The position numbers and the translations under genes are program-made. DNA of 64,000 nt from Eubacteriales bacterium (GTDB taxonomy: Bacteria > Bacillota > Clostridia > Lachnospirales > Lachnospiraceae): the NCBI GenBank assembly GCA_030524745.1, contig JAUNGC010000004.1:84846-148845 (forward strand), read 5' to 3'. This document shows, one piece after another, positions 79-60,296 of the stretch. The notes under the pieces are model-generated. The model saw only the letters and a list, made by a program, of their open reading frames with translations, was not told where the DNA came from and did not search any database. Position 1 is the first letter of the stretch; each line of letters starts with the position of its first letter.

Positions 79-239
79 ATCAGCGAACGCCGTGTGGTGA
101 GCTGATATGCGCTACTTCTCAACAAGCGAAGCGGTTGAGAAGGGACACGATCAGCGAACGCCGTGTGGTGAGCTGATATGCGCTACTTCTCAACAAGCGA
201 AGCGGTTGAGAAGGGACACGATCAGCGAACGCCGTGTGG
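79..239 (+). repeat. 71-bp tandem repeat, two full copies plus 19 bp
   Basis: Copies start at 79, 150 and 221, exactly 71 bp apart; the third stops after 19 bp, immediately before the sortase ribosome binding site. Each full copy holds two inverted repeats: ATCAGC/GCTGAT (extended to GCATATCAGC/GCTGATATGC in copy 1) and CTTCTCAAC/GTTGAGAAG. The repeats contain in-frame ATG codons that would wrongly extend the sortase gene upstream. Transcribed, they would form a row of hairpins in the 5' leader. Confidence 0.9.
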
Positions 240-258
240 CGACAGGAGTACAGGTAAA

Positions 259-13139: not shown

Positions 13140-13154
13140 AGAAAGAGAAGAAAA

Positions 13155-13184
13155 GAGAATCGGAGAAATCCGGTTCTTTTTTTT
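13155..13184 (+). terminator. Terminator after the CarD gene
   Basis: GAGAATCGGA pairs with TCCGGTTCT (one T-G wobble) across a short GAAA loop, followed by eight T residues. Confidence 0.75.
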
Positions 13185-13324
13185 GCGCTCTGCCTTATCG
13201 CGCAGATTTTTCGTATCATAATTCTGCGTTCTCCCACATAGTTTATATCAGTGTACAGGCCCTGCGGTATGCGAAGGCGAAAACGGCGGGGCGTGCGCAA
13301 TATCGGGACAAGGAGTGGGAGGAA

Positions 13325-44351: not shown

Positions 44352-46661
44352 ATGTCTTTGGCTTATGGCGTAACCAGCATGATTGCGCTGGCGCTGTTGG
44401 GCGTCTGCGTGATAATTGACAGAAAAAAAGATATCTGGCTTTTGCTGTTGTTCGTTTCGGTTTTTGTATGCGACTTCGGCTATTTTTTGCTGTCAGTATC
44501 CAAAACGCTGAATCTGGCGCTGCTGTCTAACAGAATTGCATATTTCGGCAATGTTTTTTTGCCGTTTTTTATATTTATGATGATCTTAAAGCTGTGCAGA
44601 ATCAGGTTCGCCAAATGGCTTCCCTGCCTGCTGGCCGCTGTCAGTGTTTTAATCTTTGCAGTCGCCGCAAGTCCCGGCTATCTTACGGTATATTATAAAA
44701 CCGTTTCCATTGAGATAACGGAGGGCGTAACCAGGCTTGTAAGAGAATACGGGCCTCTTCACGTTCTGTATTATATCTATCTGTTTCTGTATTTTGGGGG
44801 AATGCTGGTTGTTGTGGGCGATTCGATTGTCAAAAAAAGGATCACCTCCTATATTACCGGGGCGTGCCTGCTGGCGGCGGTGCTCGTCAATATTGTAGTA
44901 TGGCTGATCGAGCAGTTTTTGCCCCGGAACTTTGAGTTTTTGTCGATATCCTATATGCTGTCCGAAGCGCTGATTCTGCTTTTGTACGGAGCGTTTCAAA
45001 AGTACAGCATAGAGCGGCGCATCATTTGCGTCTGGACGGCCGCATCTGCCTGCGTGGGAATTGCTTTGCTTTGTAAGGCGGTTCCGCCTGAAAATCCGCT
45101 GTACGTGCCGTGCAATATGATTCGCAGCTTCCTTTATATGGGAATGTATTATACCTGGTGGAGGATCGCCTGCCGCGGCATCATACAGAAAACACAGCGC
45201 CGCTGCCTGAACGGAATCTGCATTCTTCTCATCTTCTGGATCGCTGTGAGCACCTGTAAACATTTTGTCTTCGAAGATAATATCACAGTGGTCCGCTATT
45301 TATGGTATGCCTATTATATTCCGCAGATTCTGATCGTCGTTTTGAGCCTGGTTACGGTTCTGATGGTCGGCAAGGGAGAAGACGCAAGGCCGGGAAAATG
45401 GGGACCGGTTCTGTTTGGAAGCGCTGCCGGACTGCTCCTTTTGGTGCTGACCAATGATTTGCACCAGCTTGTTTTTTCTTTCCCGGAGGGGGAAGCATGG
45501 AGAAATGAAGTTTGTACCCATGAAGCCGGATATTATCTGATTATGGCGCTGATCGCGCTGTGCAGCGTGGGAATTCTGGCCGCCTTTGCGTTTAAATGCC
45601 GGGTTCCGGGACGGAAGAAACTCGCAGGAATTCCCTTTTTGTGTCTGACGTTTCTGATTGCATACGGAATTTTGTATTTTGTGGAAGGCAGTATTGTGGA
45701 CACCTATCTGAATGATATGACGGCAACGGGCTGCCTGATGATTGCCGCACTGGTGGAATGTGTGATTGAAAGCGGGCTGCTGCGGATGAATATCGGCTAT
45801 GACGAATTGCTTTGGAACTCCGGCCTCGCAGTGCAGATCGCGGATGGCGCGCATCAGGTCCGGTACGCCGGGAGAAGCGCCACAAGCGTTCCGGCTCCGA
45901 CGCTGGCTGCGGCCGACGCCGCGCCGGTCATGCTGGATCGGTCTACCAGATTGTTCGGAGCCGCAATCTGCGGAGGGCATATATATTGGCAGGAGGATGT
46001 GGGCAGGCTGCTCAGGATTTGTGAAAAGCTGGAAATCACCCAGGAAGAACTGCGCGATACCGGAGATGTTCTGAAAGCGGAGTCCGGGCAAAAGGCTTAC
46101 CGGCTGCATTTGGAGGAAGAAAACCGGCTCTATGATCTGGTAGAGACGCAGACGGCCCGGCAGGTCGGTATGCTCCGGGAACTGACGGCGCAGCTTGGGC
46201 GGACGCAGAATCTGAACGAAGCGAAGCGTCTGCTGGGCAAGATCGTTATGATCGGTACCTATATCAAGCGCCGCAGCAACCTCATTTTTGTCGCCGGGCA
46301 GGAACAGAATATTCCTGCGGCAGAACTGGCTCTGAGCATAAAGGAATCGGCAGAAAACCTGAAATTATATGGTGTGGACTGCAGTGTACGGATTTTGGAC
46401 TGTGAAAAGTTCCTGCCGGAAACTGCCAATATGATATATGATATTTTTGAGGCGGTCATAGAAAAGAGCATGGATACGGTTTCCACCCTTTTGCTTCGTG
46501 TGGAATCGGAAAATGGCGGATTGCTGCTCACTATCTGCAGCGACGGTAAAGATGATCTGACTTCTCTATGCCGGATCTTTCCATGCGTCAGCGTGCGGCG
46601 GGACGAAGATGATTTGTGGTATTTGAACATGGCGCTGGAAATGGGAGGTACTGGCAGGTGA
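44352..46661 (+). CDS. Polytopic membrane protein with degenerate histidine-kinase tail
   Basis: A 769-residue protein. The first ~225 residues resemble the seven-helix N-terminal module of histidine kinases (HisKA_7TM); a second block of about seven helices spans 225-450. The cytoplasmic end (480-769) has helical DHp-like segments (LEEENRLYDLVETQTARQ) without a convincing phospho-His, and an ATPase-like fold (VESENGGLLLTICSDGKDD) lacking a clear N box. It is probably a pseudokinase sensor. GGGAGGAAAA precedes the ATG; the true kinase gene overlaps its stop codon. Confidence 0.65.
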   Translation: MSLAYGVTSMIALALLGVCVIIDRKKDIWLLLLFVSVFVCDFGYFLLSVSKTLNLALLSNRIAYFGNVFLPFFIFMMILKLCRIRFAKWLPCLLAAVSVLIFAVAASPGYLTVYYKTVSIEITEGVTRLVREYGPLHVLYYIYLFLYFGGMLVVVGDSIVKKRITSYITGACLLAAVLVNIVVWLIEQFLPRNFEFLSISYMLSEALILLLYGAFQKYSIERRIICVWTAASACVGIALLCKAVPPENPLYVPCNMIRSFLYMGMYYTWWRIACRGIIQKTQRRCLNGICILLIFWIAVSTCKHFVFEDNITVVRYLWYAYYIPQILIVVLSLVTVLMVGKGEDARPGKWGPVLFGSAAGLLLLVLTNDLHQLVFSFPEGEAWRNEVCTHEAGYYLIMALIALCSVGILAAFAFKCRVPGRKKLAGIPFLCLTFLIAYGILYFVEGSIVDTYLNDMTATGCLMIAALVECVIESGLLRMNIGYDELLWNSGLAVQIADGAHQVRYAGRSATSVPAPTLAAADAAPVMLDRSTRLFGAAICGGHIYWQEDVGRLLRICEKLEITQEELRDTGDVLKAESGQKAYRLHLEEENRLYDLVETQTARQVGMLRELTAQLGRTQNLNEAKRLLGKIVMIGTYIKRRSNLIFVAGQEQNIPAAELALSIKESAENLKLYGVDCSVRILDCEKFLPETANMIYDIFEAVIEKSMDTVSTLLLRVESENGGLLLTICSDGKDDLTSLCRIFPCVSVRRDEDDLWYLNMALEMGGTGR

Positions 46662-47926
46662 CATCTTTTTCATATTGTGGAAATCCGGAACAAACGCTGC
46701 TGATCCTGCTTTTGTTCGCCGCGTCGTTGCTGCAGTTGTTTTTTGTGATTGAGGTAGCCGCGGAGCGCAGATATGTATGCGGTATTTTTCATGCTTTTTT
46801 GTTTCTTTTGGAACTGGCAGGCTGTACGGTCCTGATCGCAGTCAGCCAGGGGGCCGAAGGCGGAGCGTTCGCGGCGCTCCCGGCGGCGGTTTTCTGGATT
46901 GTAGAGGGGACGCTGCTGATCTGGAGCGCCGTCAGTTACGCCGGTATGCTGCGGAGAATGAACCGTTCCCTGTCCCGCAGGTCGATCGAGGAAGGGATTG
47001 ATAATCTGCCCGACGGAGTCTGCTTTTTTGACGCGCGCGGCGCAGTGCGGCTGATCAACCGCAAAATGCTGTCGGTGGGGGTTCTGCTGTTCGGCAGTGA
47101 AATACAGACGCTGGACGAACTGCATACGGCGCTTGAAAATCCGCCGGATCATGTAAAACGTCTCGATGAGGCGGCCTGGCTGTATCGTTTTCCGGACGGC
47201 GACGTTCTTCGTTTTACGGAACGCGTCGTTACGGACCGGAATCAGGACACGGTGACGGAAATGATTGCGGCAAACGTCACGGAACTGTACGGGAAGCAGG
47301 AAGAGTTAAAACGGGAAAACGCCCGGCTTGCCGACGCCAACCGGAAGATGAAGCGGATTTTGGACAACATGAACGAAATCGTGCGGGAGGAAGAGATTTT
47401 GTCCATGAAGATGCGGGTACACAACGATATCGGACATAGTATTCTTTCCGCAAGAAAGGCGCTTTTGCAGCAGCAGGACATTTCCGCTATCCGTGAAAAC
47501 GCCGCCCTGTGGGAGAATGCGGTCAGTCTGCTTGACCGGGCCAACCATATGCCGCCGCTTCCGGACGAGTGGGAAACGGCCAAAAGCCGCGCCGGGGAAC
47601 TGGGCGTTGAGATCATACTGGACGGAGCGCTGCCAAAGGAGGAATCCCGGAAGCATTTGCTGACGCTTGCCGTCCGGGAGTGTGTGACAAACTGCGTGCG
47701 TCATGCGGGAGGAAGTAAGGTTTTCGCGGCGCTGCGTCCGGACGAAAAGGGAATGACCTGTGTGATTACCAATAACGGCAAAGCGCCTGCAGAGACGGTG
47801 GAAGAAGGCGGCGGACTTTCCGGACTGCGCCGCCGTATAGAACGGGAGGGCGGCAGGATGGAAGTGCAAAGCAATCCTTATTTTGCGCTTACACTGACTT
47901 TGCCGTCAGAGGAGGAACGATTGTGA
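46658..47926 (+). CDS. NarL-partner sensor histidine kinase
   Basis: A 422-residue kinase: several TM helices in the first 110 residues, a PAS-like segment (IDNLPDGVCFFDARGAVRLI), a DHp helix with MRVHNDIGHSILSARKAL (His255), and an ATPase with VRECVTNCVRHAGG and GGGLSGLRRRIEREGG, the DesK/NarX-type arrangement. GTG at 46658 overlaps the preceding stop and follows GGGAGGT by 9 nt. It overlaps the response regulator. Confidence 0.85.
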   Translation: MTSFSYCGNPEQTLLILLLFAASLLQLFFVIEVAAERRYVCGIFHAFLFLLELAGCTVLIAVSQGAEGGAFAALPAAVFWIVEGTLLIWSAVSYAGMLRRMNRSLSRRSIEEGIDNLPDGVCFFDARGAVRLINRKMLSVGVLLFGSEIQTLDELHTALENPPDHVKRLDEAAWLYRFPDGDVLRFTERVVTDRNQDTVTEMIAANVTELYGKQEELKRENARLADANRKMKRILDNMNEIVREEEILSMKMRVHNDIGHSILSARKALLQQQDISAIRENAALWENAVSLLDRANHMPPLPDEWETAKSRAGELGVEIILDGALPKEESRKHLLTLAVRECVTNCVRHAGGSKVFAALRPDEKGMTCVITNNGKAPAETVEEGGGLSGLRRRIEREGGRMEVQSNPYFALTLTLPSEEERL

Positions 47927-48561
47927 AAAACGTTATGATCGTGGAAGATCAGAAGATGATAAGGAGCATTTTGGAGGGATATATCAGTAAAAACGGCCAT
48001 TTCCGGCTGGCCGCTTCCATTGAGGGCGCGGAGCAGGCGTTTGAAATCTGCGAGAGGAAAGCGATTCATCTGATTCTGATGGACGTACAGACCGCGCATC
48101 GGGAAAACGGTCTGGCGGCGGTAAAAAAGATCAAAGCGGTCTATCCGGATATCAGGATTGTGGTCGTGACGTCTCTGGTCGACTCAAACGTTTTGGAACA
48201 GGCAAAGCGGGCCGACGCGGACAGTCTCTGGTACAAGGACACGGGGGAGGAGATTCTGACGGACATCATATCCCGCACCATGGCCGGCGCGCATATTTTT
48301 CCCGACGAACCGCCGGTTGTGGAGATCGGCACGGCAAAAAGCACTGAATTTACCAAAGCGGAACTGCGGGTTCTGCGTTGCCTTGTGAGAGGGCTTTCTT
48401 ATCCGAAGATTGCGGAAAAACTGAACATGGAGGTCGTTACCGTAAAATATCACGTATCCAATATGCTGCAGAAGACGAATCTGCAGAACAAACTTCAGCT
48501 TGCCGTAGCCGTAAGCGACGCCAAATTTGTTGTGGACCTTATGGAAGATGAGGAGGAATAA
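47923..48561 (+). CDS. NarL/LuxR-type response regulator
   Basis: A 212-residue regulator: receiver with MIVEDQKMIRSIL and Asp54 (LILMDVQTA), and a LuxR helix-turn-helix at 148-205 (LRVLRCLVRGLSYPKIAEKL, TVKYHVSNMLQKTNLQNKLQL). GTG start overlaps the kinase stop. Followed by a strong terminator, so the seven-TM protein, kinase and regulator form one three-gene unit. Confidence 0.9.
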   Translation: MKNVMIVEDQKMIRSILEGYISKNGHFRLAASIEGAEQAFEICERKAIHLILMDVQTAHRENGLAAVKKIKAVYPDIRIVVVTSLVDSNVLEQAKRADADSLWYKDTGEEILTDIISRTMAGAHIFPDEPPVVEIGTAKSTEFTKAELRVLRCLVRGLSYPKIAEKLNMEVVTVKYHVSNMLQKTNLQNKLQLAVAVSDAKFVVDLMEDEEE

Positions 48562-48732: not shown

Positions 48733-50007
48733 TTGAGCATCAATCATGTAGTATCGATTATTTCTTTTATCACTTTGGTATCTATGTTCTATCATGTGGA
48801 AGTTCTTCCGTTTTCTGCAAAGAAAGAAAAAATAATTTCTGTTTTGGCAGTTCTGTTTATGGCAGTGGTCAGCGCGGCGCTTTTTGCAGGTACGGATATG
48901 CCGGACGGGCAGGTGACGCTATTTGTGCAAACCATACCTTCGCTGGTTTTATGCTGGATGATGGCGCAGCATAAGGACCTGCGCTTCTGGTTTGTGTTTT
49001 GCCTGATCGATGTTGTGGGCTTCATGACGATTCTGTTCTGTAACGGGACGGCCGTTATGTTCCATTTGAATGACGGCGTGAGGGCGGGGCTCAACATATT
49101 GGTGCTGATTTTGATCGTTCTGATTATCCGGAAATATGGAAAAGAATGGAAAAAGTCAATGGAGAAGGTGGAAAAAAATTGGGGAATGCCGGCGCTTTTT
49201 GTTCTGTTGATTTATGCCTTCAGCTATTTTCTGACGCTGTATCCGGTTCCCTGGATGGAAAGGCCGGAGTATGCGCCTGTCGTCATAGGCTATTCTTTGC
49301 TGATGCTTTTATGCTGCGCCATTCTCATAAAAATGTTGGTGGGGATGAATCGGATCAGCCATATGGAGCAGGAAAGACTGCGGATGAAGCTGGAACTGGA
49401 AGAAACGAAATCCCGTATTATGCTCGATCAGATTCATCCTCATTTTATTTATAACACGTTGGCTTCGATCCGGTATTTTGTGAAGAAGGAACCGCAGACG
49501 GCCTACGACATGCTCTATGATTTTTCCAGATATCTGCGTTCCAATATAGATTCTCTTACCGGAAATGAATACATTTCATGGGAGGAGGAACTGGAACACA
49601 TTAACGCGTACGTCAGCATTGAGAAAATGCGTTTCAAAGAGCGGCTGAATGTTATATATGAACTGGAGGACGCAGACTTCCTTCTTCCGCCGCTGACAGT
49701 GGAACTGCTGGTGGAAAATGCAATCAAGCATGGCGTTTCCGTTAAAACGGACGGCGGAACCGTGTGGATTCGGGGAAAGAAACGTCCGGGAGGCTATTTG
49801 GTCATTGTGGAGGACGACGGCGCAGGCTTTGAGGTTGAAAAGCTGGAAAGGGAGAAGACTGTTGGACTGAACTATATCCGGGCACAACTGAAAAAGATGC
49901 CTGGGTCCGGCATGAAGATAGAAAGCAGTCCCGGAAGTGGAACGACGGTGTCTGTCTTTTTTACGGGAAATGCGGGAGAGAGAATGAATGAAGATAATGT
50001 TGGTTGA
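48733..50007 (+). CDS. LytS/YesM-type sensor histidine kinase
   Basis: A 424-residue kinase with about six TM helices (1-205), a short coiled linker (EQERLRMKLELEETK), the phosphoacceptor region LDQIHPHFIYNTLASI (His237), and ATPase motifs LLVENAIKHG, VEDDGAGF and VGLNYIRAQL. TTG start at 48733 after GGGGGA. It overlaps the next regulator gene and lies directly upstream of the surface locus. Confidence 0.87.
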   Translation: MSINHVVSIISFITLVSMFYHVEVLPFSAKKEKIISVLAVLFMAVVSAALFAGTDMPDGQVTLFVQTIPSLVLCWMMAQHKDLRFWFVFCLIDVVGFMTILFCNGTAVMFHLNDGVRAGLNILVLILIVLIIRKYGKEWKKSMEKVEKNWGMPALFVLLIYAFSYFLTLYPVPWMERPEYAPVVIGYSLLMLLCCAILIKMLVGMNRISHMEQERLRMKLELEETKSRIMLDQIHPHFIYNTLASIRYFVKKEPQTAYDMLYDFSRYLRSNIDSLTGNEYISWEEELEHINAYVSIEKMRFKERLNVIYELEDADFLLPPLTVELLVENAIKHGVSVKTDGGTVWIRGKKRPGGYLVIVEDDGAGFEVEKLEREKTVGLNYIRAQLKKMPGSGMKIESSPGSGTTVSVFFTGNAGERMNEDNVG

Positions 50008-50794
50008 TGATGAAACGAATAATATGGACGCCTTTGAGATGGAAACAGAGGGGATGGAAGACATAGAGATTGTGGGCAAATTCCAAAACGGACAGGATGC
50101 TTTGGCGTTTGCCGCACATGAAAGGGTGGAACTCGCCGTGCTGGATGTGGAAATGCCGCAGATCAACGGGATTATGCTGGGGCGAAAACTCAAAGAACGG
50201 AATCCGGGGATCGCCCTGGTCTATGTGACCGGATATAAACAGTATGCTTACGACGCGTTTCAACTGGAAGCCAGCGCCTATCTTCTGAAGCCTTTCAACC
50301 GGGAGGATGTGGAAAAGGCGATTCTGCGGGCAAAAAAAATGGCGGGCCTTGCGGACGGCCCCCGCGTTTTGATCCGGACCTTCGGAAGGTTTGAAGTGTT
50401 TGTGGATGACGGGCCGGTGGTATTTAAAAGCAGAAAAGCGAAAGAACTGCTGGCTCTTTTGGTGGACAGGGCCGGCGGCATCGTGACGACGGAGGAAATT
50501 CTGACTTATTTGTGGGAGGATAAGCCGGATACCGACAGCAACCGGAGCCTTTGCCGGAAAGTGATACAGCGGCTTCACAACACCCTGGAGGAATATGGAA
50601 TCGGGGAAATCGTTTTGCGGCACAGCAGAGGCAGGAGCCTGGACAGGACTAAGGTGGACTGCGATTATTACCGGTGGCTGGAAGGGAAAAACGGGGAAGA
50701 ACAGAAATTTTTGGGAGAATATATGACGAATTACGGCTGGGGAGAAGAAACGCTGAGCCGGCTGCTGGCCAGAGAGAAACAAAATCGGGAATAA
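49988..50794 (+). CDS. Response regulator with SARP-like winged helix
   Basis: A 268-residue regulator: receiver (1-120; VDDE, Asp53 in LAVLDVEMP, LLKPF), then a winged-helix output domain (about 130-230; IRTFGRFEVFVDDGPVVF, KAKELLALLVDRAG, RKVIQRLHNTLEEYGI) of OmpR/SARP type. The tail may be a shortened BTAD region. It is the last regulatory gene before the signal peptidase/fibre genes and the best local candidate for their control. Confidence 0.82.
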   Translation: MKIMLVDDETNNMDAFEMETEGMEDIEIVGKFQNGQDALAFAAHERVELAVLDVEMPQINGIMLGRKLKERNPGIALVYVTGYKQYAYDAFQLEASAYLLKPFNREDVEKAILRAKKMAGLADGPRVLIRTFGRFEVFVDDGPVVFKSRKAKELLALLVDRAGGIVTTEEILTYLWEDKPDTDSNRSLCRKVIQRLHNTLEEYGIGEIVLRHSRGRSLDRTKVDCDYYRWLEGKNGEEQKFLGEYMTNYGWGEETLSRLLAREKQNRE

Positions 50795-50906: not shown

Positions 50907-51584
50907 ATGGGAAAAAAGAGAAAAGGGCGAAGAAAAGCGGAAAAAAGCGACGTTCTGAATCGGGTATGGACGGGGGTCGGGATTGTTCTGTGCGTGATTC
51001 TGCTTCCGGTGCTCATCATAAACGTCACATTGATTGTCAAAAGCTATGTAAATCAGGACGAAGTTCCCAGCGTGGGCGGCTATTTGCCGATGATTGTCCT
51101 GACGGATTCCATGTATCCTGAGATCCAAAGCGGCGATCTGATCATTTGCCGCAGGATTGCGGCCGGGGAAGTCCGCGCCGGCGATGTGATTTCCTTTTTT
51201 GATCCGGCGGGAAACGGAACGAGCGTGGTAACGCACCGGGTAGTGGAATGTGTGGAACAGGACGGCGGGTTGGCATTCCGGACGAAAGGCGATGCGAATA
51301 ACACAGAAGACGCCGAAGCCGTCCCCGCTGCCAATCTGGTGGGCGTTTATCAGAGGAGAATTGCAGGCGCCGGCAACGTCGCCATGTTTATGCAGACCAC
51401 GCCGGGGCTGATCGTCTGCGTGATCGTTCCCTTTTTACTGCTCGTCCTTTACGATATGATCCGCCGCCGGGCTTATGAAAAGGGCAGGCAGCAGGATACG
51501 GAGGCTCTGCTGGCCGAACTGGAACGGCTCAAGGCTGAGAAGGCCCAAAAGACCGGTACGGGAACAAAAGAGGAGTCCTTTTAG
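50907..51584 (+). CDS. SipW-type signal peptidase I (first)
   Basis: A 225-residue ER/SipW-type signal peptidase. N-terminal TM (about 20-42), Ser68 in LTDSMYPEIQSGDLI, His110 in VVTHRVVE in place of the bacterial Lys, KGDANNTED, then a C-terminal TM (about 154-175) and charged tail. SipW-type enzymes process TasA-like fibre subunits. ATG 50907 after AAAAGGGGA. The 85-bp gap after it holds a 14-bp palindrome at 51626-51639. Confidence 0.87.
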   Translation: MGKKRKGRRKAEKSDVLNRVWTGVGIVLCVILLPVLIINVTLIVKSYVNQDEVPSVGGYLPMIVLTDSMYPEIQSGDLIICRRIAAGEVRAGDVISFFDPAGNGTSVVTHRVVECVEQDGGLAFRTKGDANNTEDAEAVPAANLVGVYQRRIAGAGNVAMFMQTTPGLIVCVIVPFLLLVLYDMIRRRAYEKGRQQDTEALLAELERLKAEKAQKTGTGTKEESF

Positions 51585-51669
51585 GTACATTCTTTCCGCG
51601 GGAGCCACGCCCGGGAATGGATATAAATGCCGCGGCATTCTCCGCGAACTTTGAGAAAGGAGTTTTGTC

Positions 51670-52338
51670 ATGAAGAAAAACAAAATGATGAGAATTGCTT
51701 CCGGGCTGTTGGTACTTTGCCTTTTGACGACCTGCGCCATCAGCGGTACCTTCGCCAAGTATGTGACGAGCGAGAGCGGAAGCGACAGCGCAAGGGTGGC
51801 GAAGTTTGGCGTGGAGATCACTGCCAACGGTTCCATGTTTGCAAAGACTTATGAGACCGATGACCAGACTGTCACGGGCATTGCGAATTCCGTAGTATCA
51901 ACGGAAAATGTGATTGCGCCCGGAACCGAAGGCGAAATGGTCGGAATGGCGCTGTCCGGCACGCCGGAAGTGGCGGTTGCGGTGACCTATGCGGTGACCA
52001 AACTCGACCTGACCGGCTGGACGGATGAGGAAGGCAATTACTATTGTCCGCTTGAGATTACGGTGGGCAACGATACGATAAAAGGGCTTGACTATGCTTC
52101 GGCGGCAGAGTTTTCCGCAGCGGTTTCTCAAAAAATTGCGGGTTATTCCAAAAACTACGCCCCGAACACTGATTTGAGAACGGTATCCGCCGACAGTCTT
52201 TCCGTTTCCTGGGCATGGCCGTTTTATGTTTCTGAAGGCAATGATGTAAAAGATACTTATCTTGGGGATCAGGCTGCTGAGGGCAATGCTTCTAAGGTTG
52301 AAATCGAAGTAACCACAACGGTCACCCAGATCGACTGA
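51670..52338 (+). CDS. TasA/CalY-like secreted fibre subunit (probable major)
   Basis: A 222-residue secreted protein with a SipW-type signal peptide: basic MKKNKMMR, hydrophobic 9-25, and cleavage region AISGTFAKYVT. The mature part is beta-rich and ends VEIEVTTTVTQID, an ending also seen in the product at 53960. GAGAAAGGAG gives a strong start. Its position right after a dedicated SipW and before a stable hairpin suggests the most abundant product. Fibre formation is by analogy with TasA/camelysin. Confidence 0.78.
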   Translation: MKKNKMMRIASGLLVLCLLTTCAISGTFAKYVTSESGSDSARVAKFGVEITANGSMFAKTYETDDQTVTGIANSVVSTENVIAPGTEGEMVGMALSGTPEVAVAVTYAVTKLDLTGWTDEEGNYYCPLEITVGNDTIKGLDYASAAEFSAAVSQKIAGYSKNYAPNTDLRTVSADSLSVSWAWPFYVSEGNDVKDTYLGDQAAEGNASKVEIEVTTTVTQID

Positions 52339-52356
52339 TTATTTTATCGTACATAA

Positions 52357-52391
52357 GCTGCTGTCCGACCGTGTGGCCGGCGGGCGGCAGC
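52357..52391 (+). terminator. Stable hairpin after the fibre gene (attenuator or mRNA stabiliser)
   Basis: GCTGCTGTCCG (52357-52367) pairs with CGGGCGGCAGC (52381-52391): 11 bp including two G-T wobbles, 13-nt loop, only a short T run after it. It probably limits read-through or protects the upstream message. Confidence 0.5.
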
Positions 52392-52484
52392 CTTTGATAC
52401 CGGACTTTTGTTTTGCCTGGCGCCGCTGTATGGAAGCGGCGCCGGTCAAAGCAAAAGACTTATGTTGCGCAAAGGGGCTGTTTC

Positions 52485-53396
52485 ATGAGCGGTAGAAATG
52501 TTAAAAAGTCCAATATGGCGATGGGAGGACCCGGTTTTGCCGGGATTATACTCCTTTTGGGGGTGATTCTGACGGCGGTTGTGTGTGTTTGGCGGATTGC
52601 CTCTTTTGCGGCCGAAGACGCTACTCTGGTCATTCCGGTGGCGGTTTCCGAATCTGTCGATACCGCGGTCCTGTATGAGCAAAACACTGCCCTGCCCAAT
52701 GTGCGGACGGAACAAAACAGCTTATCCGCAGCAGAAGCGGGCTTTGCGGTTTCGGATGAAAAACAGGTCTGGAGCAGTCAGACCGCAGTGGAGATTTTCC
52801 GGATTTCCTATGAGAATGGGGATAATCAGATCACCGTGGCGGGGGACGGGGAGAAGCTTATAGCGCCCGGCACCGCAAACGAGTATGATTTTCGTCTGTC
52901 CAATACCGGCAACGTCGCGGTGGACTATACGATGACAATGGAGGCTTATTTCGGCCGGGAAAACAGGACCATTCCGGTTGAAGTGCGTGTGAACGATTAT
53001 CAGGGAAATTATCTGGCCGGAAGCCGGGACGAATGGTCGCCCGTTATGGAGTTGAACAGCGTCAGCGATACCGCGGTGCTTGGCGCCGGTCATTATAACG
53101 GTTATACGTTGACATGGCAATGGCCGTTTGAGGGAGACGACGCCTATGATACGCTGCTTGGAAATTCGGCGGTGCAGGAGGATATCACGCTGACGATCGT
53201 GATCTGTGTCCTTGCGGCTGCCAGCGAGGATCCGGATGCGTCCGGCGGAATCCCGCAGACAGGCATTTTCGGTGTGCCCGGCGGCGTGCGGACCGGAGAT
53301 GAACACGGCGCCGCGCTGTGGCTGGCATTGCTGGCGGCTGCGGTTATTGTGATCGTGATATGTCTGTCGGCCAGGTTTAGAGGAAAGAAAAGATGA
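52485..53396 (+). CDS. Cell-wall-anchored surface protein, possible sortase substrate
   Basis: A 303-residue protein: N-terminal hydrophobic segment (about 17-39), a beta-rich ectodomain (APGTANEYDFRLSNTGNVAV; LTWQWPFEGDDAYDTLLG, the latter like the TasA-like protein upstream), then IPQTG at about 258, VRTGD about ten residues later, a hydrophobic stretch and a basic end (RFRGKKR). This fits a sorting signal, with either IPQTG or VRTGD as the motif. ATG 52485 has AAAGGGG upstream; an in-frame ATG or other start at 52413 is less likely. It may tether fibres to the wall. Confidence 0.72.
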   Translation: MSGRNVKKSNMAMGGPGFAGIILLLGVILTAVVCVWRIASFAAEDATLVIPVAVSESVDTAVLYEQNTALPNVRTEQNSLSAAEAGFAVSDEKQVWSSQTAVEIFRISYENGDNQITVAGDGEKLIAPGTANEYDFRLSNTGNVAVDYTMTMEAYFGRENRTIPVEVRVNDYQGNYLAGSRDEWSPVMELNSVSDTAVLGAGHYNGYTLTWQWPFEGDDAYDTLLGNSAVQEDITLTIVICVLAAASEDPDASGGIPQTGIFGVPGGVRTGDEHGAALWLALLAAAVIVIVICLSARFRGKKR

Positions 53397-53956
53397 AAAA
53401 GAAAGGCGCGCTTTTAAAACCTTCCGGATACCGTATTGTCCTGCTGATGATCCTCAGCCTCGTGATCGGCGCCGGCGTTTACCGGTGGAACGCCCGGAAT
53501 CTTATGGGGAATGAATTGCCAATGCCCTTTGGTTACGGATCTGCCGTGGTACTTTCGGGCAGCATGGAACCGGCCCTGTCGGTGAACGATTGGATTATGA
53601 TAAAAGAAACGGAAACCTATGAGACTGGCGATATCGTTGTGTTTCAAAGCGAAGGGGAATTGATCGTGCATCGCGTGATCGGAATCGGTCATGAGATGAT
53701 TCAGACAAAAGGCGACGCGAATCTTGCTGCGGACGAGCCGGTCGCGCTATCCTGCGTGAAGGGAAAAGTGATCGGCCGCGTTCCCAAAGCAGGCGTTATG
53801 ATAAATGCGGTGAAATCTCCGCCGGGCATCGCGGTAATTTTGATCGCGGCGGTTTTTCTGATGGAACTCTCTTACCGTAAGGACCGGGAGAGGGACGACG
53901 GCGAGTTGGAAAAGCTGAAGGATGAAATCCGTAAGCTGAAAGAGGAACGGGAATAA
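53393..53956 (+). CDS. SipW-type signal peptidase I (second)
   Basis: A 187-residue enzyme with N-terminal TM (about 14-31), Ser57 in VLSGSMEPALSVNDW, His93 in LIVHRVIG, QTKGDANLAAD, C-terminal TM (about 140-160) and coiled basic/acidic tail. It is clearly different in sequence from the first (50907), so it is not a recent duplicate. It overlaps the previous gene by ATGA. Confidence 0.87.
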   Translation: MKKKGALLKPSGYRIVLLMILSLVIGAGVYRWNARNLMGNELPMPFGYGSAVVLSGSMEPALSVNDWIMIKETETYETGDIVVFQSEGELIVHRVIGIGHEMIQTKGDANLAADEPVALSCVKGKVIGRVPKAGVMINAVKSPPGIAVILIAAVFLMELSYRKDRERDDGELEKLKDEIRKLKEERE

Positions 53957-53959
53957 AGG

Positions 53960-54517
53960 ATGAAGAGAAACGGCAGTGGGGCAAAAAAACAAAACAGAAT
54001 ACGAAACTATGCGCTGCGTCTGGCGGCCTTGCTGATTTTGCTGGTGGGCGGTTCATTCTGGACGCTTACCGGACTTCTTGCCCGCTACACCGGCGGAGCT
54101 GCCGGCAGTGATGCTGCCGGAGTCGCTTCCTTTCGCGTGTCTGCAAAGGGGGATAGGGAACTTCTTTCCGTAGACTGTTCAGATGCGGACCCGGAGGCGG
54201 CATATACGATTTTTTTGCGGAATGACTCTGGAGTGGCGGTGTCTTATGACGTGATTCTCCTGTTTGAAAAGCCGCTGCCTGACAGCGTATCGGTCACCTT
54301 AAACGGAGAAACTCCCATCCTTTCAGATGAAGGAAAAACCATGACCTTTCTGCGGGCCGGAGAACTGGCCGCTGCAGAAGATGCGGGCGCTTCTTTGGCG
54401 GAGCGGGAACTGGTTTTTGCGGCGGACAAAGCGATTCATAATGAACTTGCAGACGCGCAGAACCATGCGTTATCCAACAGTTTTGAAATAGCGGTCAATT
54501 TTACGCAGATTGATTGA
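53960..54517 (+). CDS. Small TasA-like secreted protein
   Basis: A 185-residue protein with SipW-type signal (basic 1-20, hydrophobic 21-38, LLARYTGGAAGSDAA). Beta-rich mature domain with NDSGVAVSYDVILLFE and a C-terminal FEIAVNFTQID ending like that of 51670. It begins 3 bp after the signal peptidase stop. Likely minor fibre subunit or assembly factor. Confidence 0.72.
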   Translation: MKRNGSGAKKQNRIRNYALRLAALLILLVGGSFWTLTGLLARYTGGAAGSDAAGVASFRVSAKGDRELLSVDCSDADPEAAYTIFLRNDSGVAVSYDVILLFEKPLPDSVSVTLNGETPILSDEGKTMTFLRAGELAAAEDAGASLAERELVFAADKAIHNELADAQNHALSNSFEIAVNFTQID

Positions 54518-54528
54518 GGGAGAAGTCG

Positions 54529-55173
54529 ATGAAGAGACGCTTCGGTGGAAAAAAATATTGCATCGCTGCCGCAGTTTGCGCGGCGGCGCTCATGCCGGCT
54601 CTTTTAGCGACCGGCATCTGGGCCAGGTATATCCGGTCGATCTCATGGAAAGCGGATATTACCTTTTCGGCGGATTTGGCGGAAGAGATTTACCTGGTCG
54701 AACATAAAGCGGAAAAGCAGACGGACGGCAGCTACCGGCTGGATGATACCGTGACAGTGACGGAAAATGCGTATACCGTTATGCCGGGCGTGGATATTCC
54801 GAAGGATCCCTGGGTGTATATCGGCAACAAGAGCGCAGTTGACGCCTGGTTATATATAGAAGTGGCCGACGGCTGTCCGGAAGGAATTACCTATAGCCTG
54901 ACGGAAAACTGGATAGCGCTGAAAGGGGAGAACGGAGAACCTGTGACGGGAAGTCACGGCGGCGCTGTTTATGTGTATAGCGCGGACAAAATGAACGCCT
55001 CTGTGCTGAATGAAACATTTACGCAGCACGCGCTTCCGATTTTACAGGATGATACCGTTTTTGTCAGTCAGTTTATCACAAATCCTGCCGGATTTTCCCT
55101 GGATTTTTATGGTTATATGGCGCAGACCGCAGAGGGAAAAACGGCGGCAGAGGTGTTTATGGAAAGCTTTTAG
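54529..55173 (+). CDS. TasA-family-like secreted protein
   Basis: A 214-residue protein: signal (about 9-28) followed by ATGIWARYIRSISWKADI, the RY motif typical after SipW cleavage. Mature domain contains PWVYIGNKSAVDAWLYIEV and FVSQFITNPAGFSLDFYGYM. ATG 54529 follows GAGGGAG; the in-frame start at 54514 overlaps the previous stop. Function inferred from locus. Confidence 0.7.
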   Translation: MKRRFGGKKYCIAAAVCAAALMPALLATGIWARYIRSISWKADITFSADLAEEIYLVEHKAEKQTDGSYRLDDTVTVTENAYTVMPGVDIPKDPWVYIGNKSAVDAWLYIEVADGCPEGITYSLTENWIALKGENGEPVTGSHGGAVYVYSADKMNASVLNETFTQHALPILQDDTVFVSQFITNPAGFSLDFYGYMAQTAEGKTAAEVFMESF

Positions 55174-55200
55174 CAGCGGCGCTGAAGGAGAAGGAAATAC

Positions 55201-58200
55201 ATGAGGAAGAAGCTGAGTCTGAAAATCATAGTCTTATTATTTGCCGTCTTGCTGCTGGTCCCTGTTTTTTCTGTGAACCTGTGGAATCTGGCGGTCAATG
55301 CGGCCGGCCTGCCCGGCGGAAGCGGCCTGACCATCTATTGCGGCAACGATCCGGTCAGCAGTCTGCTTTTGGAAACGGATGAAAGGATGACTCTGACGGC
55401 GGAGGGATTGTCCGGAAACGCGGCTTATTCATGGCAGATTTTAAAAATGGATACGGGCGAGTGGGTGGATATTTACGACGCGACAGACACGGCGTGCGGC
55501 CTGTCATATGCGCTGGTGAAAAATATCATCGGCAGCGGCGTAAAAACGGCGATTCGCTGTTCTGCCCGGCAGAATGATACGCTCTATTACAGCGATCCGG
55601 TTTTTGTGACGGTGGATCTGTCTTCGGGGCAGGAGACGCAGGAGGCTGTGACGGTTGTGCCGGTATCGGAGCAGACTGTTGTACAAAGCGCTGCGCAGCG
55701 GAAGAGGGCGGCAGCGGCGGCGTCCGCAGAATCGGATACTGACACGGTAACGATCACCATTCATTATCAACTGGAGGACGGCACGACGATTTTCCAGGAC
55801 TATGTGGCGAGCTTGCTGGATGGGAGTTCATTTTCTGCAAGCGTTTTGTCTCCGCTTTATATCGGGTATACGCCGTTTATAGAAGAGGATGGCGGATATA
55901 CGGATGCCTCCACAGTAGCGTTGCAATATACCAATCTGCATACGGATGTGGAATTGACGGTGGTGTATAAGCCGGCAGAGTCCCCTTATACGGTTCACTA
56001 TTTTCTGCAGAATGTTTTAAACGATCTGTATACGGAGGACGCCAGTCTGAAATTCAGGGGATCCGCGCTGACAGGATCCTATCCTTCCGAAAAGATTGAG
56101 ATTGAAATTCCGGGTTTTACGGCGCTTTTTCATCTTCCGGACGTCGTTGCCGCCGATGGAAGCACGGAATTTGAATGTTATTATGACCGCAATTACTATT
56201 TGTATAATTTTGACTGCAACGGCGGCTATGGCGTTGAGCCGGTCTATGCCCGTTACGGCGCCAGTCTGATTATCGGCGAACCGACGAGAACGGGCTATAC
56301 ATTTGCGGGCTGGGATCTGATGGCGGAGGACGGCAGCTATGACGGCATTGCGGACGAACCGGATGCAACGGTCGGCATCGGAAATAAAACGTACCGGGCG
56401 CTCTGGACTGCGGGAACCGCCTCCTTTACAGTCGTTTACTGGGGAGAAAATGCGGACGACGACGGCTTCAGTTATATTTCTTCCCATACATATGAAACGA
56501 CTTCCGGTTTACGGATCCGAAGCACGGATTTTTCAAGCTTTGAATTCTCCAGCAAGGAAGGGGACACATATCCCGGCGGTACGCCTCGGCCCTACTATGC
56601 GGAGGCGGATTACTTTGTTTACGACAGCGAGCGGACGGAAAGAAATAATGCGTTTCTGGATGAGACGGACGCAAACGGCAACCCGATGAAATGTCTTTAT
56701 ATAGAGGGGGACGGTTCCACTACGCTTAACGTTGTTTACAAGAGAAAAGAATATACGCTGAAGTTTTTTTATGCGAAAAGTCAGGTGGAAGACGGCGAAA
56801 ATCAATATTATGTTGTCGGCGGCAGCACCTATTATTTTGGATGGGCGGATACGGCGGATGAGCAGACCATGCTGGAAGCGGAAAACAGCGTTTCCGGAGT
56901 GTGGGGGCAGGTGGAAAGTCAACCGACGCTCAACGACAGGGGAAAAGCCCGGGGGTATACGCTCGGATCGGAAACCTATAATGGCGTGACGTATTATTAT
57001 CTGTCCTTTGACGCAAAATACGGTTCTGATATCAGCGGACTCTGGCCGGTTTCCGTGTTTGAACCGGTGAAGAGGACCGAAGCGAATACGCATGGAAACT
57101 GGTCCGGCATGGAAGCGTACCGCAGCGCCTGGAACGGCGAACCTTATGTGAAGTATACCCAGGATAATCTGAACGGAAATCAGACGATTAAGGGAATTTA
57201 TCAGAAACTGGATTCTCAGATTCTTTACGATTTGAATAAACATGCGGATTCCGACACGGTCCGGTATCTCTGCTTCTGGGAAAACGGGGCGGATATCAGT
57301 TGGAGCGTGCCCAAGCTGTTTATCTATGAACTATATGTTCCGGCGGCGGAAGGGGAAGAGGGCAGCTATTTTTATGATGGTGTGGCGTATAAATTATATG
57401 TTGCGCCGTTTAATACCTATGATGATTCCGACGTGAACAATCAGACGGCTTCCGCGCTGGAAGGCTTTACGTTTTTAACAAGGGATTCTTCTCAGAATCC
57501 GGATCTTGAAAACGGAATGAAATCTCATACCGTACGTTTTTTCTATACGCGCAACAGCCATACGCTGACCTTTTCCAGCCAGAACGATTCCGTGTTCAGC
57601 GCCACGACGCCCTATGAATACGAACTGAGAAACTATGCCGGAGAAACCGCCGTCGCAAATCCGCCCTATCCGTCTTCACTGGAACCGGGCGCATATGAAT
57701 TTGACGGCTGGTATCTTGCTCCGGAAGGCCAGGGGACCCGGATTGATATGGAAAATACGCAGATGACGATGCCGGATTCCGAGTTGACCCTGTATGCTTA
57801 CTGGAGACCCGTGGAGCATACCGTTACGTTTTCCGATACGTATCAGAAAATGCTGGACGGCGAATATAAAGAGACCGTGACGGTTGCGCATGGCGATTTC
57901 ATCGCGGCGGCGGATGTGCCGGATCCGGATTCTTCCGCTCTGGGCGCGGGTTCGTATGATTTCAAGGGCTGGTTTTATATCAATGGAAAAGGAGAAAAAC
58001 AGGCGTTCAGCGCTTCTGAGATGATGGTGAATGCGGACATGCATTTGTTCGCGGAATGGCAATCCGCGTCGGTAGTGCCTTATACGATATATTATTGCGA
58101 TGAGAACGGCAATAAAGTTGCGGAAGATACCGTCGGTTATTCTTATGCGGGAGCCACTAAAACCTTTGTGGCCAAGGCGGGAGAAGAACTGAACGAAGGA

Positions 58201-59616
58201 TACCGGTCGCACTATTATCCGGCGACGAATTCGCATTCCGTTCTGATGAGCATGGAGGAGGCGAACCAATATACCTTCCGGTATGTTTATAAAGCGGAGG
58301 TCGGCTATACGGTGCGCTATGTCGCGCAGGATACGGGAGAGGAATTGATTCCTGCCAAAACGGACATAACCGACAAGTCGGTGCTGACGGAGAAATTTGA
58401 ATATATTTCGGGCTATATTCCGGACGCGTTTTACAAAAGGCTCGTTCTGGCGGCGGATGAAGAAGAGAATATCATTACCTTTTATTATACCAGGGATGCG
58501 GGGCATGCGATCTATGCGATCCGTCATATGGTGGAGGAACTGGATGGTTCCTATAGCGAATATGCCTATATTGAAGGCGTCGGCGATCTGGACCAGGAGG
58601 TGTTCGTGCCACCGATGATCATAGACGGCTTTACCTATGATACGGATGTGACCGGAAAGAAAAATGCCGGGGACATTACGGTATCGGAATCCGGCGTTTC
58701 GGGAATTGTGACGCAGGACGGCCTGGAAATGGAACTTTATTATCGAAGAGATCTCTTAAGCTATACGATTCAGTATGTGGAATACGGAACCTCCAATGTG
58801 CTGGAGGAGCCGGTCGTTGAGGAAAAGGCAAAGTTCGGAGAAACGATCACGCATGAGCCTGTACCGGAACTGACGATAGGGGAAGGGACCGAAGACAGCG
58901 CCACCTATCAGTTGATCGACCCGCAGAATACGCCCCGCACTTTTACGCTGCGGGAAGATCACCAGATTTTTACGGTGTATTACCGGATCCAGCAGCATAC
59001 GATTAACTATATTGCGGTTTCCAACTATCCGGGCGCGGTCGATTTCGGCAGTGTGAGTCCTCTGTCGGAAATGGTTTCAAGGGTTTCGGGGGTTGCCGGT
59101 TCGACGCCGGAAGCTGCGGAAGGATACCGCTTTGAAGGCTGGTATACGGACGCGGCATGTACCGTGCCTGTGGATCCTGACTGGATTGACGATAACAAGA
59201 AACTGACGCCCGAAGATTTGTCTTTGGAGGTCTCCAATTATTATGCGTTGTTTGTTCCGCAGATCGGCAATCTGACAATTTATAAAGAAGGCGCGGCGGA
59301 TGCGGATCAGAATCAGACGTTTCTGTTTTCTGTGATCGGCGCGGGAAGGGGACTGGCTTCCGGCATCAATCTGACCGTTTCGATTACCGGAAACGGCAGC
59401 GTGACGGTGACGGATCTGCCCGTGGGAAGATATGCGGTGGCAGAGATCACGGACTGGTCATGGCGGTATCTATGCGACGGCGCCGATTCTCAGTCGGTTA
59501 TCGTAACGGAGGACGGCGCAAATTCCGTCACCTTTAAAAATATTGGAAAAAATACGACATGGCTGGGAGGCGAGGCGTCGAAAGACAACCGGTTCCGGGC
59601 TGCAGCGGCGCCGTAA
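55201..59616 (+). CDS. Giant secreted repeat protein (InlB B-repeats, MucBP-like)
   Basis: A 1471-residue extracellular protein. Signal peptide 1-35. MucBP-like unit near 182-260 (VTITIHYQLEDGTTIF); InlB B-type repeats near 335-410 (TGYTFAGWD), 785-870 (YEFDGWYLAPEG) and 870-950 (YDFKGWFYINGKG); MucBP-like repeats near 959-1260 (YTIYYCDENGNKVAE, GYTVRYVAQDTGEEL, SYTIQYVEYGTSN); a further B-repeat near 1265-1350 (YRFEGWYTDAAC); a final Cna-B/SpaA-like domain (1355-1455). It ends RFRAAAAP with no TM or sorting signal, so it is released or held by other proteins. Probable adhesin or matrix protein. Confidence 0.8.
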   Translation: MRKKLSLKIIVLLFAVLLLVPVFSVNLWNLAVNAAGLPGGSGLTIYCGNDPVSSLLLETDERMTLTAEGLSGNAAYSWQILKMDTGEWVDIYDATDTACGLSYALVKNIIGSGVKTAIRCSARQNDTLYYSDPVFVTVDLSSGQETQEAVTVVPVSEQTVVQSAAQRKRAAAAASAESDTDTVTITIHYQLEDGTTIFQDYVASLLDGSSFSASVLSPLYIGYTPFIEEDGGYTDASTVALQYTNLHTDVELTVVYKPAESPYTVHYFLQNVLNDLYTEDASLKFRGSALTGSYPSEKIEIEIPGFTALFHLPDVVAADGSTEFECYYDRNYYLYNFDCNGGYGVEPVYARYGASLIIGEPTRTGYTFAGWDLMAEDGSYDGIADEPDATVGIGNKTYRALWTAGTASFTVVYWGENADDDGFSYISSHTYETTSGLRIRSTDFSSFEFSSKEGDTYPGGTPRPYYAEADYFVYDSERTERNNAFLDETDANGNPMKCLYIEGDGSTTLNVVYKRKEYTLKFFYAKSQVEDGENQYYVVGGSTYYFGWADTADEQTMLEAENSVSGVWGQVESQPTLNDRGKARGYTLGSETYNGVTYYYLSFDAKYGSDISGLWPVSVFEPVKRTEANTHGNWSGMEAYRSAWNGEPYVKYTQDNLNGNQTIKGIYQKLDSQILYDLNKHADSDTVRYLCFWENGADISWSVPKLFIYELYVPAAEGEEGSYFYDGVAYKLYVAPFNTYDDSDVNNQTASALEGFTFLTRDSSQNPDLENGMKSHTVRFFYTRNSHTLTFSSQNDSVFSATTPYEYELRNYAGETAVANPPYPSSLEPGAYEFDGWYLAPEGQGTRIDMENTQMTMPDSELTLYAYWRPVEHTVTFSDTYQKMLDGEYKETVTVAHGDFIAAADVPDPDSSALGAGSYDFKGWFYINGKGEKQAFSASEMMVNADMHLFAEWQSASVVPYTIYYCDENGNKVAEDTVGYSYAGATKTFVAKAGEELNEGYRSHYYPATNSHSVLMSMEEANQYTFRYVYKAEVGYTVRYVAQDTGEELIPAKTDITDKSVLTEKFEYISGYIPDAFYKRLVLAADEEENIITFYYTRDAGHAIYAIRHMVEELDGSYSEYAYIEGVGDLDQEVFVPPMIIDGFTYDTDVTGKKNAGDITVSESGVSGIVTQDGLEMELYYRRDLLSYTIQYVEYGTSNVLEEPVVEEKAKFGETITHEPVPELTIGEGTEDSATYQLIDPQNTPRTFTLREDHQIFTVYYRIQQHTINYIAVSNYPGAVDFGSVSPLSEMVSRVSGVAGSTPEAAEGYRFEGWYTDAACTVPVDPDWIDDNKKLTPEDLSLEVSNYYALFVPQIGNLTIYKEGAADADQNQTFLFSVIGAGRGLASGINLTVSITGNGSVTVTDLPVGRYAVAEITDWSWRYLCDGADSQSVIVTEDGANSVTFKNIGKNTTWLGGEASKDNRFRAAAAP

Positions 59617-59682
59617 ATACGGGAAAGAGCAACTGTTTCGGCGCTTTGCGTGATTCGAAAGAAGAGGCGGGAGGAAAGCACT

Positions 59683-60296
59683 ATGGCATCACAGCGCGCA
59701 AAATCACATTGTTCAAAATCGTGCCGGCTAAAACCGCGCCTTAAAAGAAAAAAAGGCCGGTGCGCCGTCTGGCAGGAATGTTTGCGCTCGCTTTTTTGCT
59801 GGCCGCATCGGTTGGTTTTTTGGGAGTTTTCGCTTATATGAAGTGGAACGGCGGAATTAAAAATGAGTTTTTGGCGGAAACCGCTTCTGACCCGGTCATC
59901 AGGGAGAACTTTGACGGAGAGGAAAAGAAAGATGTTTTGGTCGGCGTCGGTAATACGGGATGTTCGGTTTATGTCCGCGCCGCGGTGGTTGTGACGTGGA
60001 TGAATGCGGACGGAGAGGTCTTCTCACAGTCTCCCGTGGCGGGAACGGACTATGCGATCGAATGGAATCTGTCGGATTCCGGCTGGAGCAGGGGAGACGA
60101 TGGATTCTATTACTATGCCGCGCCGGTTGAAAGCGGCGGGGAAACGGCGGTTCTGATCAGAAACTGCGCGCCTTTGACGGAAGCGCCGAAAGAAGGATAC
60201 GCTCTGAACGTTAAAATTGCGGCCCAGACCATACAGGCCGCCGGAACAACGGATGGTGGAGAGATTCCGGCCGTAACGGACGCGTGGGGCGGATAA
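59683..60296 (+). CDS. TasA-like secreted protein, N-terminus in a different frame (A7 tract)
   Basis: The C-terminal frame (from GTG 59760) encodes a hydrophobic signal (FALAFLLAASVGFLGVFAYM), then VRENFDGEEKKDVLVGVGN-like and VYVRAAVVVTW, ending IPAVTDAWGG. It has no good ribosome binding site. A better start, ATG 59683 after GGGAGGAAA, encodes MASQRAKSHCSKSC and a Lys/Arg run in another frame that ends at 59841. A -1 shift within AAAAAAA (59748-59754) joins the basic N-region to the hydrophobic segment, making a normal signal peptide. This could be programmed slippage, phase variation, a mutation or a sequencing error. Without the shift, only weak GTG initiation would make it. Confidence 0.62.
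59748..59756 (+). other. Slippery A7 tract (candidate -1 frameshift site)
   Basis: Seven A residues followed by GG. In the frame of the ATG at 59683 it reads A AAA AAA GGC, a permissive -1 heptamer. One slip links the two frames described for 59683-60296. Confidence 0.5.

Follow-up and report, generated by a model that had tools for sequence, protein, structure and literature searches.

The matrix fibres studied in the papers cited here, as far as the cited portions go, belong to Bacillus species and to one Clostridium. In B. subtilis the tapA-sipW-tasA system combines one dedicated signal peptidase SipW with two structural proteins, a main subunit of the SipW-processed type and its minor partner (PMC9674648, PMC10903470); the B. 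cereus TasA-CalY-CapP filaments comprise several subunits with an assembly helper and are sortase-independent (PMC13082335); and in C. perfringens the sipW-bsaABCRSD locus encodes one SipW, short secreted proteins and a two-component system of its own, with a transcript boundary after the main subunit (PMC7395162). A relative of these systems, found in many gut Clostridia and three actinobacterial records, is described here from a 64,000-nucleotide stretch (the window) of the Lachnospiraceae assembly GCA_030524745.1, contig JAUNGC010000004.1, positions 84,846 to 148,845 of the forward strand. Eight genes, sipW1-B-C-sipW2-E-F-G-H, lie on a single strand at 50907-60296, all of them where the original prediction had placed a fibre locus, and encode two SipW-type peptidases, four short secreted proteins (B, E, F and H), a putatively surface-anchored protein, C, and a giant repeat protein, G. 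They rather probably encode a multi-part surface fibre of TasA/BsaA kind, in a locus that is spreading, with an RNA clasp acting on the message of B.

The comparison with the described systems is one of likeness in plan and difference in parts. The window has two SipW peptidases, a putatively anchored relative of B and a giant protein in place of the single SipW and two structural proteins of B. subtilis. The cited portion of the C. perfringens report mentions neither a giant repeat protein nor paired RNA elements, and that of the B. cereus report neither a second SipW nor a giant adhesin, the B. cereus subunits being of recognised TasA/CalY type. The kinship of H and F with the BsaA/camelysin type is a likeness to the C. 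perfringens system, whereas B is unrecognised by the BsaA model. Among the open-literature matches listed, covering titles and the beginnings of abstracts, with preprints and most subscription papers outside, the two-SipW locus, its RNA elements and Lachnospiraceae SipW loci are undescribed, and parts of the locus are unnamed by the curated family models.

The same gene order was sought in other genomes, a check named beforehand, and it recurs in distant ones with strong co-occurrence, so that the locus is more than a chance arrangement. The SipW/ER-type model TIGR02228 exceeded its curated cut-off (51.85 bits) in 39 of 116 relatives; at least five relatives (G027, G043, G040, G024, G065) carry two such genes on one strand with starts no more than 4.6 kb apart, and in the region maps of several two-SipW relatives a giant secreted open reading frame (ORF) adjoins short SipW-type proteins. 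A scan of genome contigs with a sipW1 profile found 94 relatives, 80 of which were kept, with 27-71% identity to sipW1 (52 at 50% or above) and labelled in their records as Lachnospiraceae, Oscillospiraceae, other Clostridia and some Bacilli metagenome-assembled genomes (MAGs), besides two Adlercreutzia (L095, L118) and an Eggerthellaceae MAG (L121). The order SipW, two genes, SipW occurs in 55 of the 80 loci; a B homolog stands in the second slot of 51 of these, and homologs of B and then C lie between the peptidases in 47 (phmmer), B and C being exchanged in L099. The other 25 loci end at or near sipW1 (seven: L074, L091, L112, L144, L145, L150, L153), are cut after B or C (three: L082, L120, L133), keep the order with an extra or fragment ORF (three: L092, L103, L135) or differ in gene content (twelve: L114, L125, L136, L138, L140, L142, L146-L149, L151, L152). 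All 1485 pairs of the 55 loci have at least one of the four core proteins in common, while only 67 pairs do so for any of up to four upstream ORFs, and the locus thus recurs in different surroundings. It counts against this argument that core sharing, though not gene order, follows in part from the loci having been fetched through sipW1. A giant ORF of at least 900 residues is present in 29 of the 45 two-SipW loci having at least 4.5 kb beyond sipW2.

The spacing of the genes sets B apart from the rest. The median gaps are 187 nt before B and 177 nt after it, then -8, 24, 27, 33 and -0.5 nt. Since B has long gaps and RNA ends of its own and the genes from C to H are tightly packed, separate control of B is the simplest reading. 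The 3' hairpin was found in seeking a terminator after B. GTGGC occurs in the B-C gap of 46/56 loci and in the sipW1-B gap of 4/55, and no hexamer of the B-C gap is as widespread as CGTGGC (30/55 loci; the next, 21). In a fixed frame at least 7 of 12 pairs are possible in 38 of 65 loci and at least 11 in 25, whereas only one of 970 other GTGGC sites in the same loci reaches 11 pairs, and this one, in L099, follows the displaced B. In 29 gapless rows, 90.1% of cells are paired (57.5 in shuffled rows), all 14 pairs have changed on both sides, and the covariation is 0.840 against 0.219 shuffled and at most 0.208 slid. A model built on this hairpin (R1) gave 40 matches in 81 sources, 39 of them directly after B (the stray one is on the minus strand of L119) and 35 lying 19-69 nt past the B stop; 10 of the 11 matches outside the training rows are likewise directly after B. 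Only its own copy was returned from 43 further sources (L032-L071 without L035 and L052, together with L072, L073 and L213-L215). A search of 391 genomes, low in sensitivity as 17 candidates were scored per genome and its own copy was missed, added two matches, each of which directly follows a B gene and is accompanied by the 5' element.

On the other side of B, GCCACG is the most widespread hexamer of the sipW1-B gap, Shine-Dalgarno-like hexamers aside (34/56 loci; GCCAC in 45/56), and it is found upstream of sipW1 itself in 2/56 loci. The structure of this 5' element was set by hand, RNAalifold having given 4 pairs, and the model of it (R2) matched 46 times in 83 sources, once per source, 45 times just before B and 11 times outside the training rows; the remaining match, in L074, follows sipW1 and is cut by the contig end, and 41 further sources gave none. 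The window rows belong to the training sets of both models. When the window is folded the 5' motif is unpaired (z -0.84) and the 3' hairpin scores z -4.18. At the Rfam gathering scores nothing was found in the window and just tRNA and TPP elements in 8 loci, and the L077 region gave three weak matches, far under those scores. By eye, a palindrome, ATGCCGCGGCAT, follows the 5' hairpin in the sipW1-B gaps of L076, L077, L088 and others (about 51615-51650 in the window), and the longer of these gaps hold further complementary stretches in a leader-like structure, the window gap being just 85 nt. A long-range helix between the 5' arm and the stretch preceding the B start was rejected, as 16/32 loci reach at least 9 of 10 pairs against a chance sum of about 16, which is not above shuffles.

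The loops of the two elements are complementary, 5' GCCACG to 3' CGUGGC, and in L099, where B is displaced, the two hairpins have moved along with the gene. Of the B-bearing loci, 66 in all, 46 have the 5' motif in the unpaired part of a hairpin, 52 have the 3' motif so placed and 43 have both. These 43 loci were selected by that very property. Hairpins of -20 kcal/mol or below leave GTGGC wholly unpaired in 35 of them, against 0 of 629 other sites, and hairpins at -10 kcal/mol do so for GCCAC in 36, against 20 of 397. The sixth loop pair is complementary in 38 of the 43 (shuffled mean 29.7; as high in 0 of 2000 shuffles), as G-C in 25, A-U in 10 and G-U in 3, the rest being A-A (4) and C-C (1). 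The loop duplexes predicted for eight loci range from -9.8 to -17.2 kcal/mol. The two hairpin loops would accordingly be able to pair and clasp both ends of the B message, by which B may be made or kept in excess over the packed block C-sipW2-E-F-G-H. The pair makes testable how one operon yields far more main subunit than peptidases, anchor and adhesin. That base pairing between the 5' and 3' untranslated regions of one message can control a bacterial biofilm gene is known from icaR of Staphylococcus aureus, which its authors call a singular example in the cited portion of the paper (PMC3868564). In icaR the Shine-Dalgarno region is paired with a UCCCCUG motif, to repressive effect, whereas here two hairpin loops are complementary, one upstream of the Shine-Dalgarno sequence and one after the stop codon of a matrix-type gene.

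Several observations weigh against the clasp. The fixed frame of the 3' hairpin is missed by 27 of 65 loci, and among the 38 that fit it a few are different sites (L078, L083, L113, L126); the 29 covariation rows were selected for good hairpin fit; neither loop is seen in a hairpin in 11 of 66 loci with B; and the two Adlercreutzia loci have no 3' hairpin. The 5' helix is modestly supported (80.4% paired against 76.0 shuffled; covariation 0.287, with one slide reaching 0.237), and 4 of the 39 rows behind R2 are not found by it. At the sixth position the loops do not match in 5 of the 43 loci or in L235, and nine of the ten A-U cases are one clade, L102 being the one outside it. In the alignment a TATAA-like stretch comes after the 5' element, so that the element may be promoter DNA. 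With this goes an alternative that deserves serious consideration even if we hold it to be the less probable account, namely that the flanks of B are unrelated, the 5' one a promoter or operator and the 3' one a partial terminator or message-end stabiliser, the loop match having no function. A hairpin with a T-tract follows B in 18/55 loci (shuffled 3) and sipW1 in 10/55 (shuffled 0), and in C. perfringens a terminator with read-through after bsaA separates sipW-bsaA from the rest (PMC7395162, cited portion). However, the top hexamers of the two gaps, CGTGGC and GCCACG, are reverse complements whose sixth position changes in step, and in just 10 of 39 R1 copies do the 12 nt beyond the stem include at least six T. 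That B is followed simply by a terminator was rejected on the 18/55 count, the window copy not showing the hairpin with T-tract. Because the loop pair is conserved, the clasp is favoured.

It is highly improbable, at the same time, that the hairpins work as sites in single-stranded DNA, with B a cassette exchanged through recombination. L099 carries B and both hairpins together at another place in the operon, the two loops taken as double-stranded DNA are one motif in opposite orientation, and in 12 of the 80 sipW1-type loci tyrosine recombinases are encoded no more than 2.5 kb upstream of SipW. But the likely recombinase sites, which are inverted repeats, flank the region before sipW and not B; the same search gave no recombinase gene of this sort in the window; and B tracks the history of SipW1 no less closely than C (Spearman 0.746 against 0.58; 0.282 against 0.262 in the main clade).

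The short proteins, compared profile to profile (hhalign), fall into two kinds, because C and E join B (C 99.5%, E 1.7e-22 across the mature core; E 99.7%, E 3.5e-25) and H and F join a BsaA/camelysin-type set of 14 proteins from other SipW loci (H 99.7%, E 9.9e-27; F 97.9%, E 3.8e-13). To that set B is weakly similar (92.4% over 86 columns starting in the signal region) and C scores 40.8%. The TasA-like character proposed for the short proteins is thus supported in part, F and H going with the BsaA/camelysin type and B resembling it weakly. No Pfam or NCBIfam model reached its cut-off with B, C, E or F; H reached 18.5 bits (E 0.0013) with the BsaA model TIGR04090, the cut-off of which is 60 bits. 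Neither TIGR04090 nor PF12389 (TasA/CalY, camelysin) matched in the window's own genome at E 0.001, therefore the locus is a relative of those systems and not a member. Among 38 B-family members PF12389 matched none at E 0.01 and TIGR04090 one (E 0.0004). Sequence searches of the Protein Data Bank (PDB) gave no match with the B profile or with G, and with the H profile four hits only, at E 0.06 or worse. The SipW-style signals expected of at least four short proteins were confirmed, B, E and F having a hydrophobic N-terminus followed by A[KR]Y and H by AYM. Over all loci, with slots assigned by operon position and a few wrong ORFs included, A[KR][YF] follows the signal in 53/55 B, 47/57 E and 16/19 F proteins and in 6/55 C, 1/29 G and 0/10 H proteins, and this mark sets B, E and F apart from C, G and H. 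At least three B-like genes follow sipW1 in tandem in L146 (10828-14790), L136 (3548-5833) and L138 (2875-5100).

By this division B would be the main subunit and E its minor relative; the short proteins would be released from the membrane by SipW1 and SipW2, as the family of these peptidases suggests; C would be a relative of B that its hydrophobic C-terminal tail keeps on the cell surface; F and H may be BsaA-like partners of G, displayed on the fibre as an adhesin; and the subunits would probably join by strand exchange, as in TasA. For C, predicted to be wall-anchored, the IPQTG, hydrophobic stretch and basic tail are present, while NCBIfam gives no match with the window protein (among 36 family members the LPXTG model matches 4 and srtB_target 3). 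Proteins of this slot have a C-terminal hydrophobic stretch in 38/55 cases and an xTG motif within the last 80 residues in 32/55. The class B sortase encoded in the window, about 50 kb from the locus, may act on C; two more sortases are encoded elsewhere in the genome.

Both peptidases exceed the TIGR02228 cut-off and are the sole matches to that model in the 3.57-Mb draft genome, in agreement with the prediction of two different SipW-type enzymes, and the catalytic dyad is kept, with Ser in 62/62 rows and His in 61/62 of the SipW1 alignment and in 61/62 rows each of the SipW2 alignment, the exceptions being gaps. The Bacillus SipW equivalog NF046067 (190 bits) is not reached (96.0 and 65.6 bits). 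In a tree of 171 rows, made by a quick method with SH-aLRT support only and with many forks open, 59 of 62 SipW2 rows and one duplicate record form a single group (support 97), outside which are L131_2, L132_2 and L135_2, the last a sipW1 fragment misassigned by the slot rule; all 62 SipW1 rows lie across a weak split (support 72) from that group, together with 7 other SipW rows. The two are thus largely separate lineages. Their identities co-vary (Spearman 0.81 over 1485 pairs; 0.56 over 903 pairs of the main clade). In L118 of Adlercreutzia sp. ZJ141, SipW2 and E are one ORF (12925-14577) joining a peptidase to a candidate substrate, which links SipW2 to E. L125 speaks to the contrary, as it has one SipW and still B, C, a giant and H, and a strict SipW2-E rule is weakened by it, L052/L125 having a small protein with an E-like YARY start (by eye). 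This locus also favours the view that SipW2 is a redundant duplicate with no substrates of its own, which we consider unlikely, since SipW2 is a separate lineage maintained next to SipW1, has its start where C ends and, in L118, forms one ORF with E.

Fusions also connect the later genes: F and G are one ORF in L075 (F residues 8-235, G 297-1574), F and H in L085 and L098, and rows L107 and L115 of the F alignment continue by eye into an H-like part, which argues for F-G-H as one unit. It is distinctly improbable that SipW releases these proteins as surface adhesins that act separately, with no fibre formed. The failure of every TasA, CalY and BsaA model to match B is in favour of such an account and a point against the fibre, but homology ties C and E to B, and F and H to proteins of the BsaA/camelysin type; C. 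perfringens has filaments formed by BsaA (PMC7395162, cited portion); and the fusions and fixed order point to one assembly.

The predicted InlB/MucBP character of G is borne out in its InlB half, with three List_Bact/InlB-type stretches (TIGR02543, 65.1 bits), and not for MucBP, as just Muc_B2 was seen at E 0.077. Its homolog in L075 matches at E 4e-255, and a viral scan with G found no relative. The C-terminus is weakly prealbumin-like and belongs to a module common to 15 giants, with WSWR in all and a WL[NSGD]G tail in 14 (FGLNG in L052); Pfam SpaA is weakly seen in 6 of the 15 and DUF5979 in 5, and NCBIfam gave no match among them. In the 116 relatives the module was found below 1e-30 in 5 genomes, all of them training rows and all beside SipW, the remaining listed matches being partial and above 1e-8. 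In 348 genomes of the family, 8 matches at 1e-15 fell in 7 genomes, seven of them within about 8 kb of a same-strand SipW gene; the eighth (G242) is cut by the contig start, in a genome where no SipW over the cut-off was found, and G283:C16, G303:C4 and G242 are new to the alignment. The WL[NSGD]G tail occurs in 9 of 17 complete giants of sipW1-type loci, a further point on the contrary side, so that several giant types exist. We would tentatively propose, at somewhat less than even confidence, that a previously undescribed 5'-3' RNA clasp looping out the B message and setting stoichiometry, a subunit family that Pfam and NCBIfam lack and a WSWRY-WLNG docking end on some giants together make a new branch of Gram-positive matrix fibres under RNA control of its own.

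Table 1. Features of the fibre locus and its surroundings; positions are those of the window unless another locus is named
Feature	Position	Strand	Support or proposed role
sipW1, SipW/ER-type signal peptidase (Ser-His)	50907..51584	+	TIGR02228 96.3 bits
5' RNA element of B, hairpin, loop with GCCACG (51604-51609)	51580..51632	+	model R2, 50.1 bits, E 4.4e-8
B, short secreted protein, 222 aa, AKY signal, C-terminus TQID	51670..52338	+	proposed main fibre subunit
3' RNA hairpin of B, loop with TGTGGC (52372-52377)	52357..52391	+	model R1, 28.6 bits, E 0.0026
C, B-type domain, IPQTG, hydrophobic stretch, basic tail	52485..53396	+	proposed anchor
sipW2, second SipW-type signal peptidase, start overlaps C end	53393..53956	+	TIGR02228 72.1 bits
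E, minor B-type secreted protein, 185 aa, ARY signal, C-terminus TQID	53960..54517	+	
F, BsaA/camelysin-related secreted protein, 214 aa, ARY signal	54529..55173	+	
G, 1471-aa secreted repeat protein, List_Bact/InlB-type repeats	55201..59616	+	proposed adhesin
G C-terminal module, prealbumin-like domain with WSWRY, then WLGG tail	59239..59616	+	alignment and genome searches
H, BsaA/camelysin-related secreted protein, 178 aa counted from GTG start	59760..60296	+	
LytS-type sensor histidine kinase	48733..50007	+	His_kinase PF06580 77.4 bits, HATPase_c PF02518 37.6 bits
Response regulator, Trans_reg_C DNA-binding domain	49988..50794	+	PF00072 74.9 bits, PF00486 27.4 bits
Class B sortase	178-1116		TIGR03064 159.4 bits, cut-off 153.75
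Inverted repeats, recombinase-SipW interval	L127 9543-9865; L126 9591-9889; L128 9542-9831; L129 2748-3066		
Inverted repeats, recombinase-SipW interval	L139 2326-2643; L213 16930-17281; L214 15809-16119		

The start of H may be read in more than one way, as a strong ribosome-binding site with ATG lies at 59683 in another frame than H, with a run of A between (window 59683-59770); the start is uncertain between GTG at 59760, a frame change in the cell and an error of the record. CoaX of the window is 35-38% identical to those of 10 of the 12 other genomes of the same genus, these being the ten with a match, and its Dxs is 70-75% identical to those of the ten best genomes, all from other genera of the family. 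The window contig (C40 of the draft genome) may thus be misbinned, which makes the kinship labels unsafe.

The two-component system next to sipW1 probably switches the locus on. A homolog of its kinase lies beside the locus in L104, in the same order (9e-140), and a related response regulator was found in 11 of the 80 loci at E 0.001. A second regulator pair precedes it at 46616-48561, with a weak, below cut-off match to a kinase-type ATPase and a LuxR-type response regulator (PF00072 55.4 bits, GerE 44.3 bits). Apart from the sipW1-type loci, tyrosine recombinase genes stand at the same distance, up to 2.5 kb, upstream of SipW in 7 other loci, L035 being the same contig as L127, and the three recombinases tested score 87-100 bits with Phage_integrase. 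Inverted repeats were not found in the recombinase regions of L044, L038 and L041. In 7 of the 10 regions tested, 241-312 nt before sipW are bounded by inverted repeats 20-29 nt long that share a core resembling ACATAATnCnnATTATGT; the arrangement looks like an invertible promoter and would give phase variation of the fibre locus in recombinase-bearing strains.

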